NCBI GenBank assembly: GCA_016209155.1 | Contig: JACQWU010000213.1 | Location: 1-9,455, forward strand | DNA from: Candidatus Desantisiibacteriota bacterium | GTDB taxonomy: Bacteria > JACRDZ01 | Direction of reading: 5' to 3' | Length of the DNA stretch: 9,455 nt | Shown here: positions 2 through 9,455 of the stretch, one piece after another | Layout: every line of letters begins with the position of its first letter | How positions within the stretch are numbered: position 1 is the first letter of the stretch | The notes under the pieces: model-generated | Told to the model about the DNA's origin: nothing | What the model saw: the letters and a program-made list of their open reading frames with translations, nothing else | The model's database searches: none | Translations under genes and position numbers: made by a program

Positions 2-646
2 GTATATCATCTTTTTTCGGAAGAAATAATTGCTTTGAAGGGAATCAGTCTGAACATTAAAAAAGGTGAATTTGTTTCAATAATGGGGCATTCAGGCGCA
101 GGAAAAACCACTCTCCTGAATCTTATCGGGTGTCTGGACAATGTTACTTCCGGTCATCTTAAGGTTTTGGATGAGAACATTGAAACATTAAATGAACAAT
201 CTCAGCGTAATATGCGTCTTAATCATCTGGGATTTGTATTTCAGGAATTCTTTTTAATTAAAGAATCAACATCTCTTGAGAATGTTCAACTGCCAATGAT
301 TTTTGCTGATAATAAAAATATGGATTGGGCAAAACATCTTATGGAACGTGTCGGTCTCGGGAAAAGGATGAATCATCTGGCAAAAGAATTATTAGGCGGG
401 GAGATGCAGCGTGTTGCCATTGCCCGCGCTTTGGCTAATAAACCGGATATTTTACTGGCTGATGAACCGACAGGAAATCTGGATACAAAGAATGCTCAAA
501 GTATTTATGATCTATTCAAACAAATAGGCAAAGAAGAAAATATAACAATCATTGCCGCGACTCATAATGTTAAACTGGGTTACCAGGCAGACAGGGTAAT
601 ACATTTGAGAGAAGGAAATATTGAAAAAGATGAGGTGATATCATGA
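2..646 (+). CDS. ABC transporter ATP-binding protein, LolD/MacB type (5' end cut off by window)
   Basis: This is the nucleotide-binding subunit of an ABC exporter or lipoprotein-release type transporter. It would hydrolyse ATP on the cytoplasmic face to drive a membrane partner that is not in the window. The frame is open from base 2, and the leading residues VYHLFSEEIIALKGISL are normal N-terminal family sequence. The TTG at 35 is therefore an internal leucine, and the true start lies upstream. Counting from that TTG, the motifs are Walker A GHSGAGKTT (18-26), Q-loop Q70, signature LLGGE (119-123), Walker B ILLADEP (139-145), D-loop GNLD (147-150) and H-loop H177. The signature is odd: the family has LSGGQ, and the conserved serine is leucine here (codon TTA, one base from TCA). 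The stop overlaps the next gene's start as ATGA. The family call is firm; the substrate is unknown. Confidence 0.9.
   Translation, partial: VYHLFSEEIIALKGISLNIKKGEFVSIMGHSGAGKTTLLNLIGCLDNVTSGHLKVLDENIETLNEQSQRNMRLNHLGFVFQEFFLIKESTSLENVQLPMIFADNKNMDWAKHLMERVGLGKRMNHLAKELLGGEMQRVAIARALANKPDILLADEPTGNLDTKNAQSIYDLFKQIGKEENITIIAATHNVKLGYQADRVIHLREGNIEKDEVIS
632..638 (+). promoter_or_regulatory. Ribosome binding site of the second ABC gene
   Basis: GAGGTGA lies four bases before the ATG at 643, inside the last codons of the upstream ABC gene. With the ATGA overlap this fixes the start of the second ATPase and suggests translational coupling of the two genes. Confidence 0.7.
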
Positions 647-1296
647 ATAATATAGTTCTTGAAGCAAAAAATTTAAAAAAATACTACACACGCGGGGTAG
701 AAACAGTTAAAGCACTTGACGGTGTGGATTTTGGCATTAAAGCCGGAGAGATTGTATCTATTGTAGGACCATCCGGCTCAGGCAAAACAACATTAATGAA
801 TTTAATCAGCTGTCTTGATACTGCCACATCCGGAGAAGCACAGCTTGTCAACGTCAGGCGCCAATACATCGGATTTATTTTCCAGCAATTTTATCTTATT
901 CCTAATTTGCTTGCAGTTGAGAATGTAGAACTTCCTCTTATTTTTGCAAGAAAACCGATAGATAAAGAAAAAATATACAAAGTTATCGAGACCGTCGGAT
1001 TAAAAGGACGCGAGAACATTCCAGCCTTTATGTTATCCGGCGGAGATAAGCAGCGTATAGCTATTGCACGCGCCTTAATTAATGAACCTAAGCTTTTAAT
1101 CGCTGACGAACCTACCGGAAAATTAGAAATAAAAGTAAGAGATCAATTATTAAAATTATTTGATGAATTAGCAAAGAAAGGGATTGCTATTTTTATAGCA
1201 ACTCATGATTTGGAACTCGCAGACAAAACAAACAGAATAATTCATCTTCAGGACGGGAAAATTATACCAAAAGAACAATCAAATTTATATCATTAA
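643..1296 (+). CDS. ABC transporter ATP-binding protein, LolD/MacB type, second of a tandem pair
   Basis: This is a second LolD/MacB-type ATPase subunit of 217 residues. Its motifs are Walker A GPSGSGKTT (42-50), Q-loop Q81, signature LSGGD (131-135), Walker B LLIADEP (151-157) with catalytic E156, and H-loop H188. Two things are unusual. The stretch between the Walker A helix and the Q-loop is about 13 residues shorter than in the neighbouring paralogue: CLDTATSGEAQL runs straight into VNVRRQYIGF. The D-loop reads GKLE where the family has NLD. The ATG at 643 is set by a good upstream ribosome site and a 4-base overlap with the first gene, so the two are cotranscribed and probably work in one transporter, possibly as a heterodimer. 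The permease must lie upstream of the window, because the next gene downstream is convergent. The substrate cannot be told. Confidence 0.9.
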   Translation: MNNIVLEAKNLKKYYTRGVETVKALDGVDFGIKAGEIVSIVGPSGSGKTTLMNLISCLDTATSGEAQLVNVRRQYIGFIFQQFYLIPNLLAVENVELPLIFARKPIDKEKIYKVIETVGLKGRENIPAFMLSGGDKQRIAIARALINEPKLLIADEPTGKLEIKVRDQLLKLFDELAKKGIAIFIATHDLELADKTNRIIHLQDGKIIPKEQSNLYH

Positions 1297-1359: not shown

Positions 1360-4300
1360 TCAATTATTAATTTCATCTATAAGTAATTTACCCTTTGCTA
1401 AATCTTGCACTTTAAGCTCCACTATTTTCCATGGAGCTGAACCGTTCTTAAGTTTTTCTCTAATGTATTTATCCCTTCTCAATGCTTGCCCAACATGAAA
1501 AGTAGCACTATCTATATAAATCGCTATTCTTCTTCCGGGAATAGCAAAATCTGCTATTGAAATAGGCGGTTCACTAGCTGAAGGTGAAACTGGAACTTGT
1601 TTTTCGACTGGTAAACCATGTTTCTCAAATAGCCTCAGGAATTTAAGCTCTAATGGTGAACCTACTCCTGCGGAATAAGCCTCAAGCCATGAAGAAGGAT
1701 CATCCATGTCCCCTCTTTCAAGCGGACGTTGTTCTGGTGAAACGCTATATAGAGCTTCTAAATCAGAAATGATTCCCGGCCATTTTAAATATTCATGATG
1801 TCTCTGATTTTGATATGCTTTAAGACATCTATAACAGGACGATTCACAATTCTTATGCTCTAAAAATGCTTCTGCTTCTTTCGCAACTTTATCGAATTCT
1901 TGTGCTATTTTCGGGAGGTAACCGCTTCCACCAATGTTTGGGTCAATAAAACTAAGCGCAGCTTGATTATATGTTATTTCGTTAATCTTTACTTTCCACG
2001 GCCCTTCCAATATAAATTCAACTTCGCCGCCATCAAGCGAATATCTATGTCTCATACCTGTTCTTAAGGAGTAACCAAGAGAATATCCCCATTCATATAG
2101 TGACTGTTCTGAAATATTATCCGGCACAGGAACAATTAAACGTAAAACCTCAATTTTATTTTCAGTATGAATAGCAATTGGATTTTCAGGAAGTCCCCGC
2201 TTTTCACACCTTGGAGAGTGATTAAATTGATCTTGTGATCCGGTTCTTTGAGGACTTCTTCTTCCACGTGCATTATTTTGTTCGGGAATTTGCGGCATAA
2301 GAATGTGCCCGCACGAAGGACAAAGAAGGAAACCTTTAGCTTCTGCATGAAGCAAATGTATCCCTCGTTCCAAATCTATTTCTTTTGGACGGTTACCTTC
2401 ATTCAGCCATACTACTTTCTCACCATGGCTCAAACGCAATCCCCAGCCCGGGCCAACAATCCATCTCCCGACAACTTGTCCATCCCACTGAGGATAACCA
2501 ATGACAAAACTGCGGGTTGCAAATCTTTCTTCCTCATCTAAAACAGGTGCTTCATCTTTTCGCGCAACAAAACCGGCATATTCAACTGAATTGATTGGTG
2601 CTCCGGCGGAAACGTCTTTACATCGCGGACAACGAGGCTCATTCGCGTCATATCGCAAATTACATTTTGAGCACAACCTGTATGGCCACCCTTGCTCAGC
2701 CCCAAAAGGATTCCATGGAGAAGACGTATCAAGGCCAACTACTTTCCACCTTTGAGCTCTGGCATAAACCTGCGCCTCAGGCTGATATTGAGCTATACCG
2801 AATCTTCTATTCACTGATATCAAATCTTCCTCATGAATTTCACCCCGTAACCTTAAGCTGGATGGTTGATCAGGAAATTCATATCCCGGCAGAATCCCAA
2901 ATTCTGCAAATCTGCGCAATGGATAACCGGACGACCTATCATCTGCATTTGCACCGGCTCTTGCTCCGGCAGTTGGAATCCCTAAAATCCGGGCAACTAA
3001 ATCACCTGCCCGCTGTCCGGCACGCCCACCTTGTAATCCTCTATAATATGATTCCAGTGCAATACGCAATTCTTTTACCTGACGGCTGGTACGGTTAAAA
3101 ACATCAATTGTTTTCTCTGAGAGCTTACTTAAAACTTCCCGCAAGGAATCATCACTCACTCCTGCAATAGAAAGGATATCTTCACCCCACGCACTTTTTG
3201 CAATACTTATTGTGTGTTCAATTTTTGATTGAAGCGCTTTGAGAAGGGAATCAACTATATCATTTTTTATCTCTCCCATAGGATCAATATATTCAACCAT
3301 CCTTCCAGCCAACCCCGGTTCAGCCGCGCCAAAAACAATCGCATTTAAGTGCCTAAACAAAATATCTTTATTTTCTAAAGAGAGCTGTGGAACTATAACT
3401 TCACCCGCGATCATTTCTTCAGGATGTTCATAGAAATATTGATCATGCGGAGTATTTCTGACGTATCCCAAAACTAAACCAATCCGCTGGCGTCTTCCTG
3501 CTCTTCCACCGCGCTGAGCATAATTATCCGGCCGTGGGGGAATATTACGCAGTAAAATTGCATCCAGGCCGCCAACATCGATACCCATCTCCAGTGTTGG
3601 AGAACATGCTAAAATATTCAATTTACTTATCTCCGAATCCGCCTTAAATCTTTCTTCTGCATTTAGACGAACCTCATTTGATACTTGGGCAGTATGCTCT
3701 TCCGCATCTAAAATAGGAAGAGTAGCCATTTTAATTCTTCTTACGTAACGTGATTTATTAACTTCCTGATCCGTAAAAACAACTAACCTGCCATGACAGA
3801 AAGGACAAGGGAAGCCTTCACAGGCAGAATTAATAATTACGCCACAGACACTGCATTTATACCGGCTATGTTCCTCGGCAAGTTTAAGACGTATACACTC
3901 GGAATTAACTTGTATTAGTTTTGCTGAATCCTGATAGCCAAAAAGTTCGGATGCAACAAGAAAACTTCCTCGTTTCAAAAATTCTAAAATATTAACGAGA
4001 AGATCTTTATTTGGATTAGCGCCGCCAAACCTATTCATCAATTGCTCAAAAAGTCTCTGAACCGCCGGGCCTTTACCACCTGAATTTTGCCTGCGCCATG
4101 GATTATGTACTTTAATTCCCTGAGGAAGAGTATGTTGATCTACATAGCCAATCGGATTCCCTGAATTATCAGCTGCAAATCCCTTGGGGTGCTTTACATT
4201 TCTTTCCCAATTAGCGGTTTTAAAATATTCCGGATGCCTTTGATTAGAAGGATGATACTTAATCATCTCGCGGTTCAAACAAGCCAAAGTACGCATTTTA

Positions 4301-6645
4301 TCCATAATACATTTACACAAATATAAAAACTCCGCTTCACCAAGTCCTAATTGTTTTAGTAAATCTTTCCCTTCAACTTTAATATATTCATCGAGCTGGT
4401 TATATACGATTTCAGCCATACCTAAATTAAAAACAGTAGCGCGGAACCCGGCATTAACCGCCAATTCATCCAACAAAGGAGCTTCTTCATAAGCCTGCAT
4501 ACGCTTACGGGCTTCTTCAGGAATCCAGCGGGATTCACCTTCAGGAATGTATGGATTATCTTTGTTCGTTACTCCTAATTCTGTTAATAATTCTACCATT
4601 CTTTGTATGGTTAAATGCCCTTCTTGTTTAAGTAAATAAATAGTACGCCTTCTCATGCGGTCATAACGGCTTGCAAAGCGTATAAAACGTGCTTGATGCG
4701 CTGCATCCTGCCGTGAATCGCTGAAAATTAAAATTCTTTCTTTTTTATCTCTTGTTACTTCATCTTTATGCGCATCTTCCAAAGCTTCAATTGTAGATTC
4801 ACACAAAACTTTCAATGCCGCGGATGTTCCTAACGTAACTGATGATACAACATTCCTACTGCCGGCAGTATTACCGCAGCAAAGACATCTGTTGCGTGCG
4901 GGCGCTAAGACTACTTTAAGCGAATACATATTCTGATTCGCACTAAAATTAAGGCTATAAGGATCTAATGAACCGTACAAAATAGCCCGGCCTTTCATTG
5001 TTCCTACAATACGCCGGTTAATTCTTTCTGAAGTATCTTCCGGAGTCTCGATCTCATCATCTTCATCATGCAATTCTCCGAATTTCTCAGGTTGATAAAT
5101 CATCCATTCAAAGATGTCTGATTTATCATTACTAGGCCTTAATACTGTTGGTTCTTCATCTCCTATAAATCTCAAATAATCTGCCCCGCAGAATCGGCAT
5201 AAATATAGTGGTGCTGTAACATGGCCGCATTCACATTTTTCTTCACCTTTTGGATATAATTTTCCGCATTCAGGATTAATGCAACGGTAAAACTGCCATC
5301 CACCGCGCATAAATTGATGCGCTTTAAGACGCAAATTTGCCGGAGCTGATTCCGGTAACACTGCGCCCAAAAGTAAAGCCATTTCAACTTCTTTTTTAAT
5401 ATTATCCAAGGTCCAACTCTTGCGTGCAGGAACGGTTTCAATTATTTTTTGAACAAGCTGTGAAATTGACATCGGCTTTTTAATCAACCAGGCATTAAAG
5501 TCCCAAATAATACGACAGCTCTTCAAAGCGGTATCTAAATCAACAGACAGATTAATCCCTGCTAATTTGCATATTTCTTTTCTTATTGATTCATCATCAG
5601 ATAGATCAGCTTCTACCGGTACAGAAAAATTTACGGAATATTTTGCCTCAGAAGGAATAACTATATCCTGCAACTCTTCTCCTAAAATTTTTATCGAATC
5701 CTGTTTAAACCCGGATAACTTAGAAAAAAATCCTTGAATTTCAGCATCTCTTTTCTTTAGCCATTCTGTTCGCGACAACCCAGCCTCGCTTTCACTTTTA
5801 ATAGTCGCGGATGTGCCTACTGCCAATAACTCAGGAAATCTTTGTTTCTGCAAATTCTCTGCTTGAGAAGTTCCCCAATCCTGACGCGCTTGTTTTAAGT
5901 GTGCCTTAAGACGCCTTACCAAAAGCGCAATGTTAGTTCCCAAAGCTCCACGATAAGTATGGACCTCATCCAAAACTAAAAATCTGCAACGGTGATTAGC
6001 AAAAATATCCTCTCTATCAGCAGGACGAACTAATAAATATTCAAGCATCATATAATTTGTAAGAAGAATATGCGGAGGATTTTTACGTAAATCTTCTCTT
6101 TGCGCCTGCGTAGTTCCCCGATCATACTTCGCCACCTTCACCAAGCCATTAAAACCGGCAGACTCCAAATATTCATCGATACGTATTAACTGGTCATTGG
6201 CTAAAGCATTCATTGGATAAAGTAGAATTGCTGTTAACCCTGCCTTTTTAAAACTAATCGCATCCTGAATCGCATTTTGTATAACCGGCAGGAGAAAACA
6301 TTCTGTCTTACCACTGCCGGTTCCGGTAGTTACCACTAAAGGAGATGCCTGGCCGCCCAGCAAATGCTCAATTGATAGTGATTGGTGCAGATAAGCAAAA
6401 TCGCTATGAGCCCGAATTGCTAACGTCTGAGCCAATTTTTTCTCGATAGGAAGTTCAACCCATCGTTTACCCACTTTAAAAGGACGATGCGCCTGAAAAA
6501 ATGGCTCCTGCGCCAGAAATCCGGGCTTTTCTAATTCGTGTTCTAATGCTTCTTTCAAAAGAGGATCTTTTGCGCGAAATTCTGTAAGTAGAAAATCTCG
6601 ATACTCATCAATAATCTGATTTAAAGCTTTAAGTGGATTAATCAT
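1360..6645 (-). CDS. Large DUF1998/MZB superfamily-2 helicase with C-terminal Vsr-like nuclease segment (defence type)
   Basis: A 1761-residue ATP-driven nucleic-acid translocase of the DEAD/DEAH type. Motifs seen: Q-motif-like LHQ (86-88), Walker A TGTGSGKTE (107-115), Ia YPMNALANDQ (143-152), Ib TNYMMLEYLL (196-205), II DEVH (226-229), III TSAT (278-281), IV FSDSRQDAA (641-649), V TLEMGIDVG (1017-1025) and VI NYAQRGGRAGRR (1041-1052). A roughly 350-residue insertion with cysteine clusters splits the two RecA lobes. DUF1998/MZB occupies about 1500-1612 (IGGSGYL at 1571-1577; C1600, C1604, C1607). The last 100 residues resemble a Vsr/DUF559-type nuclease. Relatives include DISARM DrmA/DrmB, Druantia DruE and MrfA; a single chain of this size is closest in layout to DruE-like helicases. 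The start is supported by AAGGA six bases upstream. It is last in the minus-strand operon behind a methylase and an AbiE pair. The helicase and DUF1998 calls are firm; the defence role and exact system are inferred. Confidence 0.92.
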   Translation of the reverse strand: MINPLKALNQIIDEYRDFLLTEFRAKDPLLKEALEHELEKPGFLAQEPFFQAHRPFKVGKRWVELPIEKKLAQTLAIRAHSDFAYLHQSLSIEHLLGGQASPLVVTTGTGSGKTECFLLPVIQNAIQDAISFKKAGLTAILLYPMNALANDQLIRIDEYLESAGFNGLVKVAKYDRGTTQAQREDLRKNPPHILLTNYMMLEYLLVRPADREDIFANHRCRFLVLDEVHTYRGALGTNIALLVRRLKAHLKQARQDWGTSQAENLQKQRFPELLAVGTSATIKSESEAGLSRTEWLKKRDAEIQGFFSKLSGFKQDSIKILGEELQDIVIPSEAKYSVNFSVPVEADLSDDESIRKEICKLAGINLSVDLDTALKSCRIIWDFNAWLIKKPMSISQLVQKIIETVPARKSWTLDNIKKEVEMALLLGAVLPESAPANLRLKAHQFMRGGWQFYRCINPECGKLYPKGEEKCECGHVTAPLYLCRFCGADYLRFIGDEEPTVLRPSNDKSDIFEWMIYQPEKFGELHDEDDEIETPEDTSERINRRIVGTMKGRAILYGSLDPYSLNFSANQNMYSLKVVLAPARNRCLCCGNTAGSRNVVSSVTLGTSAALKVLCESTIEALEDAHKDEVTRDKKERILIFSDSRQDAAHQARFIRFASRYDRMRRRTIYLLKQEGHLTIQRMVELLTELGVTNKDNPYIPEGESRWIPEEARKRMQAYEEAPLLDELAVNAGFRATVFNLGMAEIVYNQLDEYIKVEGKDLLKQLGLGEAEFLYLCKCIMDKMRTLACLNREMIKYHPSNQRHPEYFKTANWERNVKHPKGFAADNSGNPIGYVDQHTLPQGIKVHNPWRRQNSGGKGPAVQRLFEQLMNRFGGANPNKDLLVNILEFLKRGSFLVASELFGYQDSAKLIQVNSECIRLKLAEEHSRYKCSVCGVIINSACEGFPCPFCHGRLVVFTDQEVNKSRYVRRIKMATLPILDAEEHTAQVSNEVRLNAEERFKADSEISKLNILACSPTLEMGIDVGGLDAILLRNIPPRPDNYAQRGGRAGRRQRIGLVLGYVRNTPHDQYFYEHPEEMIAGEVIVPQLSLENKDILFRHLNAIVFGAAEPGLAGRMVEYIDPMGEIKNDIVDSLLKALQSKIEHTISIAKSAWGEDILSIAGVSDDSLREVLSKLSEKTIDVFNRTSRQVKELRIALESYYRGLQGGRAGQRAGDLVARILGIPTAGARAGANADDRSSGYPLRRFAEFGILPGYEFPDQPSSLRLRGEIHEEDLISVNRRFGIAQYQPEAQVYARAQRWKVVGLDTSSPWNPFGAEQGWPYRLCSKCNLRYDANEPRCPRCKDVSAGAPINSVEYAGFVARKDEAPVLDEEERFATRSFVIGYPQWDGQVVGRWIVGPGWGLRLSHGEKVVWLNEGNRPKEIDLERGIHLLHAEAKGFLLCPSCGHILMPQIPEQNNARGRRSPQRTGSQDQFNHSPRCEKRGLPENPIAIHTENKIEVLRLIVPVPDNISEQSLYEWGYSLGYSLRTGMRHRYSLDGGEVEFILEGPWKVKINEITYNQAALSFIDPNIGGSGYLPKIAQEFDKVAKEAEAFLEHKNCESSCYRCLKAYQNQRHHEYLKWPGIISDLEALYSVSPEQRPLERGDMDDPSSWLEAYSAGVGSPLELKFLRLFEKHGLPVEKQVPVSPSASEPPISIADFAIPGRRIAIYIDSATFHVGQALRRDKYIREKLKNGSAPWKIVELKVQDLAKGKLLIDEINN
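1363..1668 (-). other. Putative Vsr/DUF559-like endonuclease domain at helicase C-terminus (residues ~1660-1761)
   Basis: The segment runs SPLELKFLRLFEKHGL (1663-1678), then ADFAIPGRRIAIYID (1698-1712), FH (1716-1717), then RRDKYIREKL (1723-1732) and WKIVELKVQDL (1739-1749). This order is that of Vsr and DUF559 endonuclease-like folds: a helix with a glutamate, a strand with D-F, a strand ending in D/H-x-x-x-F-x-H, a helix with D-x-x-R, and a final V-E-L strand with a following D-L. Candidate catalytic residues are E1666, D1699 and H1717. This is a by-eye match, so the domain call is an inference. Confidence 0.6.
1810..2148 (-). other. DUF1998/MZB domain of the helicase (residues ~1500-1612)
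   Basis: The region holds LIVPVPDN, the LEGPWKV strand, FIDPNIGGSGYLPKIAQEF and the closing cysteine group C1600-x3-C1604-x2-C1607 followed by LKAYQNQRHHEYL. This is the hallmark layout of DUF1998. In MrfA of Bacillus the equivalent region binds zinc through four cysteines; a fourth ligand is not obvious here but could be C1442 or C1445. Confidence 0.85.
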
Positions 6646-6791: not shown

Positions 6792-7184
6792 TTACTGAAG
6801 GAAATCTATTTCAACCTTTAAAGAATTGGGAAATCCTAAAGGTCCTGAATATTTCAGACGGGAAATTTTAATCGTCGCTTTTGAAACATAATCTTCTTTT
6901 ACTTCAAGAAAATCATAAGTTTCAAAAACTTTCTTTACATCATTAAGGGTAATTGACTTATCCAAAGAACCAAAATCAAGGTCTTCCGAAAAACGTGTCT
7001 GGGGAAGATAGCAATGATGTATGGCTGTTCCTCCCTTAAAAATAATCTTATCCTTTAAAGGAGATTCATATATTATTTTAGAAACCACAGCCAGAAAATA
7101 GTCTTTCTCTGCTATAGCCAGCGGATAGCGCAGGCTTTTTCTATTCAATAATTCCAATTCTCTACGGTTTAATAATTTAATCAT
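6792..7184 (-). CDS. AbiEii-family nucleotidyltransferase toxin, C-terminally truncated
   Basis: This is the toxin half of a type IV (AbiE) system, a cytoplasmic nucleotidyltransferase-fold protein of the AbiEii/DUF1814 family. Seen in the sequence: EKDYFL (26-31), FKGGTA (49-54), RFSEDLDF (64-71) with acidic D68 and D70, SGPLGF (113-118), and KVEIDF (123-128) with the third acidic residue D127. It stops two residues later at position 130, whereas family members usually run about 200-300 residues and carry a C-terminal helical part with an RDxxD motif. Only 146 bases separate the stop from the helicase start, so there is no room for the full missing domain. The start overlaps the antitoxin stop as ATGA. 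The nucleotidyltransferase half is intact by motif, but the protein is probably impaired or altered. The family call is firm; activity is doubtful. Confidence 0.85.
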   Translation of the reverse strand: MIKLLNRRELELLNRKSLRYPLAIAEKDYFLAVVSKIIYESPLKDKIIFKGGTAIHHCYLPQTRFSEDLDFGSLDKSITLNDVKKVFETYDFLEVKEDYVSKATIKISRLKYSGPLGFPNSLKVEIDFLQ

Positions 7185-7960
7185 TCTGTTTCAACCTTAA
7201 AACCTTCCGGATAATATAGCCTCCATTTTGCATTAAAAATCTTGCTGCCTGTTGTCATATAACTGCTGCTATTATCCATTTCTGTCAAATGATAAAGATG
7301 CCCTGAGTCTATTGACAGGTTATCAAATAAAAAACCAATCACACGCTGAACTACACGCGAATATTTTTCAACAAATGAATTTAGCCGGTCAAAATCAATC
7401 TGTTTTCTATGCTCTCGCAAAATTTCAGCTACCAAATCAACAGCATACCTGTCACGGCTAAATTGAAGAATGTCTAACATTGCTTTTTCTGATGTGGCAA
7501 TTTTCACTATAGAATTTTCAATAGATGTATTTTCCCAGCCAAAAAAAAGTTTGCTTTTTGTGTTTATAAATTTATATATAGTTCCCTGCACTTCTTTTGT
7601 TTGATACCTCTTAAGAGAAACCGATGTGACTGTTTTAAGCATCTGGTCAAACATTCCGTGATGCTGCAAAGCAGCAGCAAAAGAAATATATGAATCCTGG
7701 ACTAAAATTTGCGCTACTTTAAATGTATGTGTCTCAAGAAATCCGCGGCTTTCCAAACTGGATATGGCATAAGTGCCTTTTTTAATGCGGACCAGCCACC
7801 CGTTTTTCGTCAGCTTGTTAATTAAGTTCTTTGCGGACTGACGGGTTATCTGTTTCTCAAGAATACCATAAATCTGTTCAAAAGTAGTAACAAGGCCATA
7901 TCGCACTATTATTTCTTCAATTAATGATAGTTCCTTTTCGGACAATATTGTCTTTTTCAT
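7181..7960 (-). CDS. AbiEi-family antitoxin / transcriptional autorepressor
   Basis: This is the antitoxin partner of AbiEii, 259 residues. In characterised type IV systems AbiEi does not bind the toxin. It blocks toxicity by another route and represses its own promoter through an N-terminal winged helix that binds inverted repeats. The winged helix spans about residues 6-68, ending with GWLVRIKKGTYAIS. The AbiEi core follows with YISFAAALQHHGMFD (91-105) and IATSEKAMLDIL (154-165), both typical of the family. The length is normal and no break is seen, in contrast to its truncated partner. A strong promoter with symmetric elements lies just upstream. The stop overlaps the toxin start, giving coupled translation. 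The ribosome site before the ATG at 7960 is weak (only GAG about 14 bases upstream), so initiation may be inefficient. The pair sits inside a methylase-helicase locus in the same orientation. Confidence 0.9.
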   Translation of the reverse strand: MKKTILSEKELSLIEEIIVRYGLVTTFEQIYGILEKQITRQSAKNLINKLTKNGWLVRIKKGTYAISSLESRGFLETHTFKVAQILVQDSYISFAAALQHHGMFDQMLKTVTSVSLKRYQTKEVQGTIYKFINTKSKLFFGWENTSIENSIVKIATSEKAMLDILQFSRDRYAVDLVAEILREHRKQIDFDRLNSFVEKYSRVVQRVIGFLFDNLSIDSGHLYHLTEMDNSSSYMTTGSKIFNAKWRLYYPEGFKVETE

Positions 7961-8039: not shown

Positions 8040-9455
8040 CTATTTTCTTTTTCTCAATTTTTTAGAAGCAACAATTTCGCCAAATAAATCCTTTTCCTCT
8101 TCTTCCTGAGGAATCGGAAGATGAATAACCGGCTGAGGAAGATTTTCGTTTAATGGAATATCCCAGTATGGATCATACTTTTTGGTAAAGACATCTAAGC
8201 CGATTTGTTTTAATTCATCAAACTTTGCCAGACAAATATCTGTGTATGGATTTGAGCCGCTGGCGCGATCAAAAGAATGTAACACGTGTTCATATTGTTC
8301 TCGATTTAATCCGTAGGCATCAGCTACTACTGCATCAATGGCGCTTCGCACTTCCCAGCGCTCTTCATCGGTTGACAAAACCGACCAGGTAAATGGTTTT
8401 TTATTTGGCTCACGCCAGTTGTCGCCGAGTTGTTCGTACCATATAAAGGCAAAGCCATCGTGGTTAGAAATTAACTGTAATGCGGTATGGGACAAAAATA
8501 TTTTTTTTATACCATCTATCTCAGGATACGGTAAATTTTCAATTAAGTAAAACATAACATTTGCTGATACTTTCTGCCTTACAAGGTAATCAAAAGTAAA
8601 AGAATTAAAAATAGAACATATACATAAAGCATAATACGTCGCCCTTGCATTTGGTATAGTTTCTGCACAGACTGAATCTACAAAAACAATTCCATAAGGT
8701 AGAATAGCAGACACCATAGTACGCTCATTTGTTGATGCCGCGACTTTTCTAAAAGCCAATCTATAATGAACAATAGACTCTGGCCAATGCGCTTTTTTAT
8801 AAAAATTATTAATATCTGTAGAATATTGTGGACGCTCACTAAATCTATCAGTATAAAGATAAAAATTTTTTCCTTCATAAACATAAACTATAGAATTTTT
8901 TAACGAAACATTAAATGTTTCCCATTTCTTTTCTTGAGTATAATGAATCAAACTATTTTCTCTATTTAAACTGAAACCTTGTCTTAAAATTATTTTTTTA
9001 TTATCAAGATATGATTTTAAAGTAAATCGACCGACATCAAGACATTTATTGAAAATAGAAAGAGATTTTGCATCCCGACATTCAAGAAAGGATAAGTGAA
9101 CTCCGCCGGTTTTTTCAACAAAAAACAAGCTGTATTTCAAGTCGATTCTCCGCTCATCAAATAACCATTCTTCATCATGTAAATAAAAAGCACAGGAGAA
9201 TTCTTTTGTACCTCCGAATTTTTTTTCTGCAACAATTAGTGCAAATTTAAACCTTGAGTCTATCTCAAATAATTTTTTCTTGTTTTCATAGGAATAACAA
9301 TATTTTAAACTCATTTGGTTCAAAAAAAGTTTGCGTATTCCTGTCGCCCCTTCATTCGCATGAATAGCTGATGGTAAAACTAATCCAACCACTCCGTAAT
9401 TATTCATTAATTGGTAAGTACGTTCACAAACTATTTTATATATGTCTGGTCTTCC
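8040..9455 (-). CDS. C-terminal part of a large Eco57I/PglX-like adenine-N6 DNA methyltransferase (5' end off window)
   Basis: This would transfer methyl groups from S-adenosylmethionine to adenine in a specific DNA site. The frame is open to the right edge, where GRPDIYKIVCERTYQL precedes the methionine at 9407. That stretch is the usual family sequence just after the NPPF/Y motif, so 9407 is an internal methionine and the true start lies outside. Visible are 471 residues: GVVGLVLPSAI, the RFKFALIVAEKKF strand, a TaqI-like target-recognition region, RLAFRKVAASTNERTM (a hallmark of large type IIG, PglX and DrmMI-like enzymes), and YGLNREQYEHVL plus LAKFDELKQIG near the end. The tail has a QEEEEKDLFG acidic run and ends KKLRKRK. 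The NPPY and SAM-binding motifs, and any N-terminal nuclease, are not in view, so type IIG restriction enzyme versus pure methylase cannot be decided. It is followed by the AbiE pair and the DUF1998 helicase on the same strand. Confidence 0.88.
   Translation of the reverse strand, partial: GRPDIYKIVCERTYQLMNNYGVVGLVLPSAIHANEGATGIRKLFLNQMSLKYCYSYENKKKLFEIDSRFKFALIVAEKKFGGTKEFSCAFYLHDEEWLFDERRIDLKYSLFFVEKTGGVHLSFLECRDAKSLSIFNKCLDVGRFTLKSYLDNKKIILRQGFSLNRENSLIHYTQEKKWETFNVSLKNSIVYVYEGKNFYLYTDRFSERPQYSTDINNFYKKAHWPESIVHYRLAFRKVAASTNERTMVSAILPYGIVFVDSVCAETIPNARATYYALCICSIFNSFTFDYLVRQKVSANVMFYLIENLPYPEIDGIKKIFLSHTALQLISNHDGFAFIWYEQLGDNWREPNKKPFTWSVLSTDEERWEVRSAIDAVVADAYGLNREQYEHVLHSFDRASGSNPYTDICLAKFDELKQIGLDVFTKKYDPYWDIPLNENLPQPVIHLPIPQEEEEKDLFGEIVASKKLRKRK

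Follow-up and report, generated by a model that had tools for sequence, protein, structure and literature searches.

The stretch of DNA analysed here (the window, 9,455 nucleotides) contains a gene whose product is probably the ArmC-like component of an antiphage system of the ARMADA kind, an SF2 helicase of the YprA family with a C-terminal nuclease of the EDxHD/Vsr type acting broadly as proposed below. The protein is built of a RecA core, zinc modules, a DUF1998 canopy and the C-terminal nuclease domain. This arrangement of helicase and C-terminal Vsr nuclease is already known, having been described for ARMADA in 2025 (PMC12458937). The window confirms it in a new member, and the parts that may be new are the clade to which the system belongs and a variable slot in its operon.

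Helicase gene and operon

The SF2 helicase motifs GTGSGKT (residue 108), DEVH (226), TSAT (278) and QRGGRAGR (1044) were located in the open reading frame of 1761 amino acids, together with eight CxxC motifs. An AlphaFold2 (AF2) model of residues 1110-1761, which begins with long helices, matched the DUF1998 helicase MrfA (6znp, E 1.5e-7). Scanning a single genome for each species yielded 54 related loci (L numbers below), and the helicase shares 47-56% full-length identity with about 22 full-length relatives from many phyla. No close relatives of the helicase were found on viral contigs.

Features identified in the window, with the evidence for each (aa, amino acids)
Feature	Position	Strand	Evidence
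ArmC-like DUF1998 helicase of the YprA family, ending in a predicted nuclease domain, 1761 aa	1360..6645	-	ORF, Pfam, PADLOC
DEAD/DEAH helicase domain, residues 87-283	5797..6387	-	PF00270, E 6.5e-23
Helicase C-terminal domain, residues 978-1052	3490..3714	-	PF00271, E 2.4e-10
MZB/DUF1998 zinc-binding domain, residues 1525-1608	1822..2073	-	PF09369, E 3e-6
Predicted Vsr/EDxHD-type nuclease domain, residues 1660-1761	1363..1668	-	Conservation, family Pfam matches, AF2 structure
Short AbiEii-like nucleotidyltransferase, 130 aa	6792..7184	-	Pfam AbiEii 6.7e-12, profile positions 7-84 of 238
AbiEi-like antitoxin/regulator, 259 aa	7181..7960	-	PADLOC AbiEi 2.7e-37; Pfam AbiEi_1 1.4e-4
PglX/DrmMI-like adenine methyltransferase (ArmB-like), C-terminal 471 aa	8040..9455	-	Cut by contig end

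The window is one whole contig of a draft assembly of 352 contigs and the methylase gene is cut at position 9455; no further part of this gene turned up on the other contigs. The fragment matched Eco57I (Pfam, 3.1e-4) and REase_MTase_IIG (PADLOC, 4e-28) and is 44% identical to residues 965-1431 of an ArmB-like protein of 1459 amino acids from Pseudanabaena. The contig breaks off within the methylase, before any BrxHII-like helicase gene could be reached, and elsewhere in the draft the top matches to such a gene are other helicases, with 28-41% identity over parts.

In relatives with enough flanking sequence, a helicase of about 1,080 amino acids and then a methylase of about 1,450-1,500 amino acids are located upstream of the nuclease-helicase. 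The operon order is BrxHII/DrmD-like helicase (present in L010, L015, L018, L029 and L035, for example), PglX/DrmMI-like methylase, one or more variable genes, nuclease-helicase. At L010, the methylase scored as DrmMI (1.4e-86) and the upstream helicase as DrmD (1.8e-112) and BrxHII (3.6e-76). Annotated ARMADA-type loci carry the same three kinds of gene (helicase, methylase and YprA helicase), and the BrxHII/DrmD-like helicase upstream in the relatives marks the system as ARMADA. Of the ARMADA features, the window itself holds a YprA-family helicase with DUF1998, a C-terminal domain of the Vsr nuclease type and part of a PglX-like methylase. ARMADA helicases are further characterized by a BrxA-like domain after RecA1 and a finger-like coiled-coil HTH after RecA2. 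The earlier note had considered a methylase-helicase pair for which the fused domain would supply the lacking nuclease. The fused domain was found, but the pair is not an isolated one, the BrxHII/DrmD-like helicase being a third core gene in the relatives.

Bell et al. (2025; PMC12458937) described the ARMADA core genes and reported that the YprA helicases of types I and II bear a C-terminal Vsr domain predicted to be active. Protection by the E. coli type II system was non-abortive and required all four genes as well as the Walker motifs of ArmC. The gene order helicase-methylase-YprA, seen in the relatives of the window system, is also that of cyanobacterial type I and of type II systems, whereas overall identity with the references from Acidithiobacillus caldus, Haloquadratum, Chlorohelix and E. 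coli is about 25%, and variable effector genes stand here between methylase and helicase. A likeness to DISARM class 1 (DrmD, DrmMI, DrmA/DrmB) is present as well, with the upstream helicase and methylase of the relatives scoring best as DrmD and DrmMI. The DUF1998 module is related to DrmB, but here helicase and DUF1998 are parts of a single polypeptide, and the window showed no drmC, the separate gene for a PLD nuclease.

It is quite improbable that the protein is a Druantia DruE and not an ARMADA helicase. The two have a common YprA-family helicase architecture, the top PADLOC models were DruE1 (2.4e-127) and DruE3 (1.1e-117), and a Vsr nuclease is sometimes present in Druantia III-like systems (PMC12458937). 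However, PADLOC 2.0 (2023) is older than the ARMADA description of 2025, so that no model closer than DruE was available to it. DNA cleavage has been reported for DruE, a related helicase with PLD nuclease domains at its C-terminus (PMC13192584). DruE III of E. coli, with this different nuclease and with DruH as partner, is just 21-37% identical over parts, and the Druantia core is devoid of BrxHII and PglX genes, whereas the neighbours of the helicase in the relatives are BrxHII/DrmD-like and DrmMI/PglX-like. Neither an adjacent DruH nor C-terminal PLD domains were encountered within the window, where the helicase is flanked by the methylase, AbiEi/AbiEii and ABC transporter ATPases and has a Vsr-like C-terminus of its own.

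Two adjacent ABC transporter ATPase genes (window 2-1296), convergent with the helicase gene, are probably unrelated to the defence operon.

The predicted C-terminal nuclease domain

Residues 1660-1761 were confirmed, by modelling and residue conservation, as a predicted Vsr/EDxHD-type nuclease domain of PD-(D/E)XK-type fold, Vsr branch. The earlier note had proposed such a domain within some 150 residues following DUF1998; the MZB match stops at residue 1608, leaving 153 residues, and its numbering of E1666, D1699, D1712 and H1717 was exact throughout. The proposal depended on a nuclease-fold match and on conservation of E1666, D1699 and H1717 among homologues, and both were found.

The C-termini of 26 homologues were aligned, including L030 and L033 at only 20-22% identity. 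Of the 140 aligned columns 13 were invariant, among them E1666, D1699, D1712, H1717 and D1725, identical in all 26 sequences; the chance of five random columns all being invariant is 3e-6. S1663-P1664, F1700 and Y1710 also belong to the 13. Within the EDxHD set, D1699, H1717 and D1725 are in register with Vsr and I-Bth0305I by profile, while E1666 was placed by its position in the preceding helix of the AF2 model. The spacing between the nuclease D and H is five, like that of Vsr, compared to four (DUF559-like) in several type I relatives.

Single sequences gave faint matches. The window sequence alone matched MTES_1575 in Pfam weakly (E 0.026, falling far short of the Pfam threshold), and phmmer with the last 129 residues found no match among PDB sequences up to E 10. 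When the family was scanned one by one, MTES_1575 was matched by 23 of 26 members (best 1.5e-5), Vsr by six (best 0.019) and DUF559 (PF04480) weakly by six (best 3.4e-4), the window sequence itself not being among the DUF559 matches; the curated cut-off of DUF559 was not reached. A profile of the 26 sequences retrieved only four chains from the PDB, I-Bth0305I and three of Vsr, at E values of 0.25-2.4 that are not significant alone, and with D-F...D...H in register with Vsr.

In the AF2 model of residues 1622-1761 mean pLDDT was 87.6, with a ten-residue block just before and around H1717 among the lowest (mean confidence 69). VIA-align matched the model to the catalytic domain of I-Bth0305I (3r3p; Z 10.5, 2.4 Å over 89 residues), Vsr with DNA (1cw0; Z 9.0, 3.9 Å over 107 residues), an endonuclease-like protein (3hrl; Z 8.8, 2.4 Å over 83 residues) and Vsr (1vsr; Z 8.1, 2.3 Å over 89 residues). 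With Z values of 9.0 and 8.8, mitoribosomal proteins reached similar scores. A fold match by itself is thus insufficient for a function, and the argument is completed by the conserved active-site residues. Foldseek against the PDB returned nothing under E 0.001 (best 5.3e-3), with Vsr-like folds ranked 2 and 9 and mitoribosomal proteins 1, 3 and 4. Given this weak result, the fold assignment is based on two lines of evidence combined, the Z values from VIA-align and the conservation of residues.

The Vsr mismatch endonuclease proper (PF03852) has a structural zinc site of cysteines and an aromatic wedge which intercalates at T:G. We take F67 of Vsr to be the first aromatic of this wedge. The domain of the window contains no cysteine in residues 1660-1761, and hence no structural-zinc cysteines of the Vsr kind. 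Position 1715, opposite F67, is Ala in 20 of the 26 sequences, position 1716, opposite W68, is F, V or W, and D1712 is aligned opposite H64. The absence of cysteine, the predominance of Ala opposite F67 and the D1712-H64 pairing make the label ‘mismatch endonuclease’ unsuitable. What the earlier note had read as the core of Vsr mismatch endonucleases is retained as a Vsr-like nuclease (related to EDxHD, MTES_1575 and DUF559) and abandoned as a mismatch endonuclease. The fold and the E-D-x-H-D residues are common to this domain, I-Bth0305I and Vsr, while here the domain is fused to a helicase and lacks both the zinc cysteines and a conserved double-aromatic wedge.

A genuine mismatch endonuclease, repairing T:G after cytosine methylation by the adjoining methylase, is hardly conceivable. 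The Vsr-like fold and D-to-H spacing would suit it, but the missing cysteines and the lack of an aromatic at 1715 do not, and the methylase resembles adenine methylases of the Eco57I and Alw26I type, which create no T:G mismatches.

Predicted activity

A restriction mechanism is proposed for the ArmC-like helicase and its partners. Judging from its gene family, the PglX-like methylase would mark or sense self DNA. The BrxHII-like helicase and the nuclease-helicase would act on phage DNA that is unmodified or being replicated, probably via exposed single strands, and, by analogy with MrfA and DruE, both would translocate along it. The tethered C-terminal domain may then cleave or nick the moving DNA, with E1666, D1699, H1717 and D1725 arranged around one or more metal ions as putative catalytic residues. 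Cleavage by the C-terminal domain, the choice of translocated phage DNA as its target and the sparing of self through the methylase are all inferred. The suggestion that motor, zinc modules and nuclease are combined on one chain thus stands for the domains and the fold, with cleavage as a predicted activity. The literature searched yielded no test of the fused nuclease, by mutation of the ARMADA helicase or otherwise.

Alternatively, the domain could have kept a Vsr-like fold while being catalytically dead, and serve in DNA binding or assembly, a role proposed for the Druantia I and II helicases, on which inactivated Vsr domains have been reported (PMC12458937). The nuclease residues seem to be lost in some ARMADA type I relatives, such as Akkermansia L045/L046 and Opitutaceae L044. 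Moreover, Y1710 stands where the IExDG motif of DUF559 has E, and the metal site would therefore differ in detail. A dead domain, however, is expected to lose some of these residues, as L044-L046 did, whereas the EDxHD set and D1712 are kept throughout the alignment, across many phyla and down to its most distant members. Loss of activity in the window protein is therefore regarded as unlikely.

In L044, L045 and L046 themselves the nuclease residues seem to be absent though the operon is kept, and the nuclease may thus be dispensable or replaced there.

As a predicted-active nuclease, the window domain is a cleanly conserved case among ARMADA Vsr domains and names E1666, D1699, H1717 and D1725 as candidate residues. 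If it cuts, ARMADA can be understood as a restriction system that couples a motor to a nuclease; otherwise, the effector has to be sought elsewhere.

Clade and variable operon slot

Reference helicases were taken from A. caldus and Haloquadratum (type I content), from plasmids of Nostoc and Pseudanabaena galeata (reversed order) and from E. coli (type II, located beside Druantia III and Zorya II). The type labels are our own and follow the definitions of PMC12458937, applied to the content and order of the genes. DruE1 loci were also sought as references among the genome relatives, with one match only. In a quick tree with long branches, the window clade with L030 and L033 stood apart both from type I and from E. 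coli plus Tsukamurella (support 99-100). AU tests did not reject joining the window clade to type I (p-AU 0.34) or to type II (p-AU 0.31). We tentatively suggest, as a possibility with somewhat less than even chances, that the window represents a third ARMADA lineage spread across phyla, in which a position between methylase and nuclease-helicase in the conserved core is reserved for varied effector modules, serving as back-up or output.

In the window this slot holds the AbiEi-like and AbiEii-like genes. The 130-residue AbiEii is without the C-terminal half, ending in ...VEIDFLQ* directly behind the VEID motif, with some 147 bp left to the start of the helicase gene, and is either a truncated or a minimal form. 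The AbiEi/AbiEii pair is regarded as an accessory module, its toxin half being probably incomplete in the window. In L003, L005, L006 and Pseudanabaena the slot contains a relative of ArmD (24% identity) in the form of a ParE/RelE-UvrD fusion. Elsewhere among the relatives it is occupied by GmrSD-type, Schlafen AlbA_2, HEPN/RES, SIR2, AAA ATPase, PLD and TPR-EAD7 proteins or by an MqsA-like regulator with a CapP-like peptidase, and in L010 and L025 it is nearly empty (181-321 bp). For each gene cluster a single representative was assigned by profile, and its other members by clustering. Loci were chosen by helicase similarity and not by slot similarity, and the survey covered the slot positions alone.

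The slot was seen at 6792-7960 of the window and in L003-L006, L009, L010, L012, L015, L016, L018, L020, L021, L024-L029, L032, L035, L036, L039 and L042, its contents varying among modules of defence or toxin type. Neither a variable effector slot nor any mention of AbiE, Schlafen or GmrSD was found in the main text of PMC12458937. A Phd/YefM-VapC toxin-antitoxin pair was observed between the genes for the BrxHII-like helicase and the methylase (L089, 22109-22743; L085, 5416-6121), a second insertion point which occurs in systems of type I (A. caldus) and of the window clade (Pseudanabaena).
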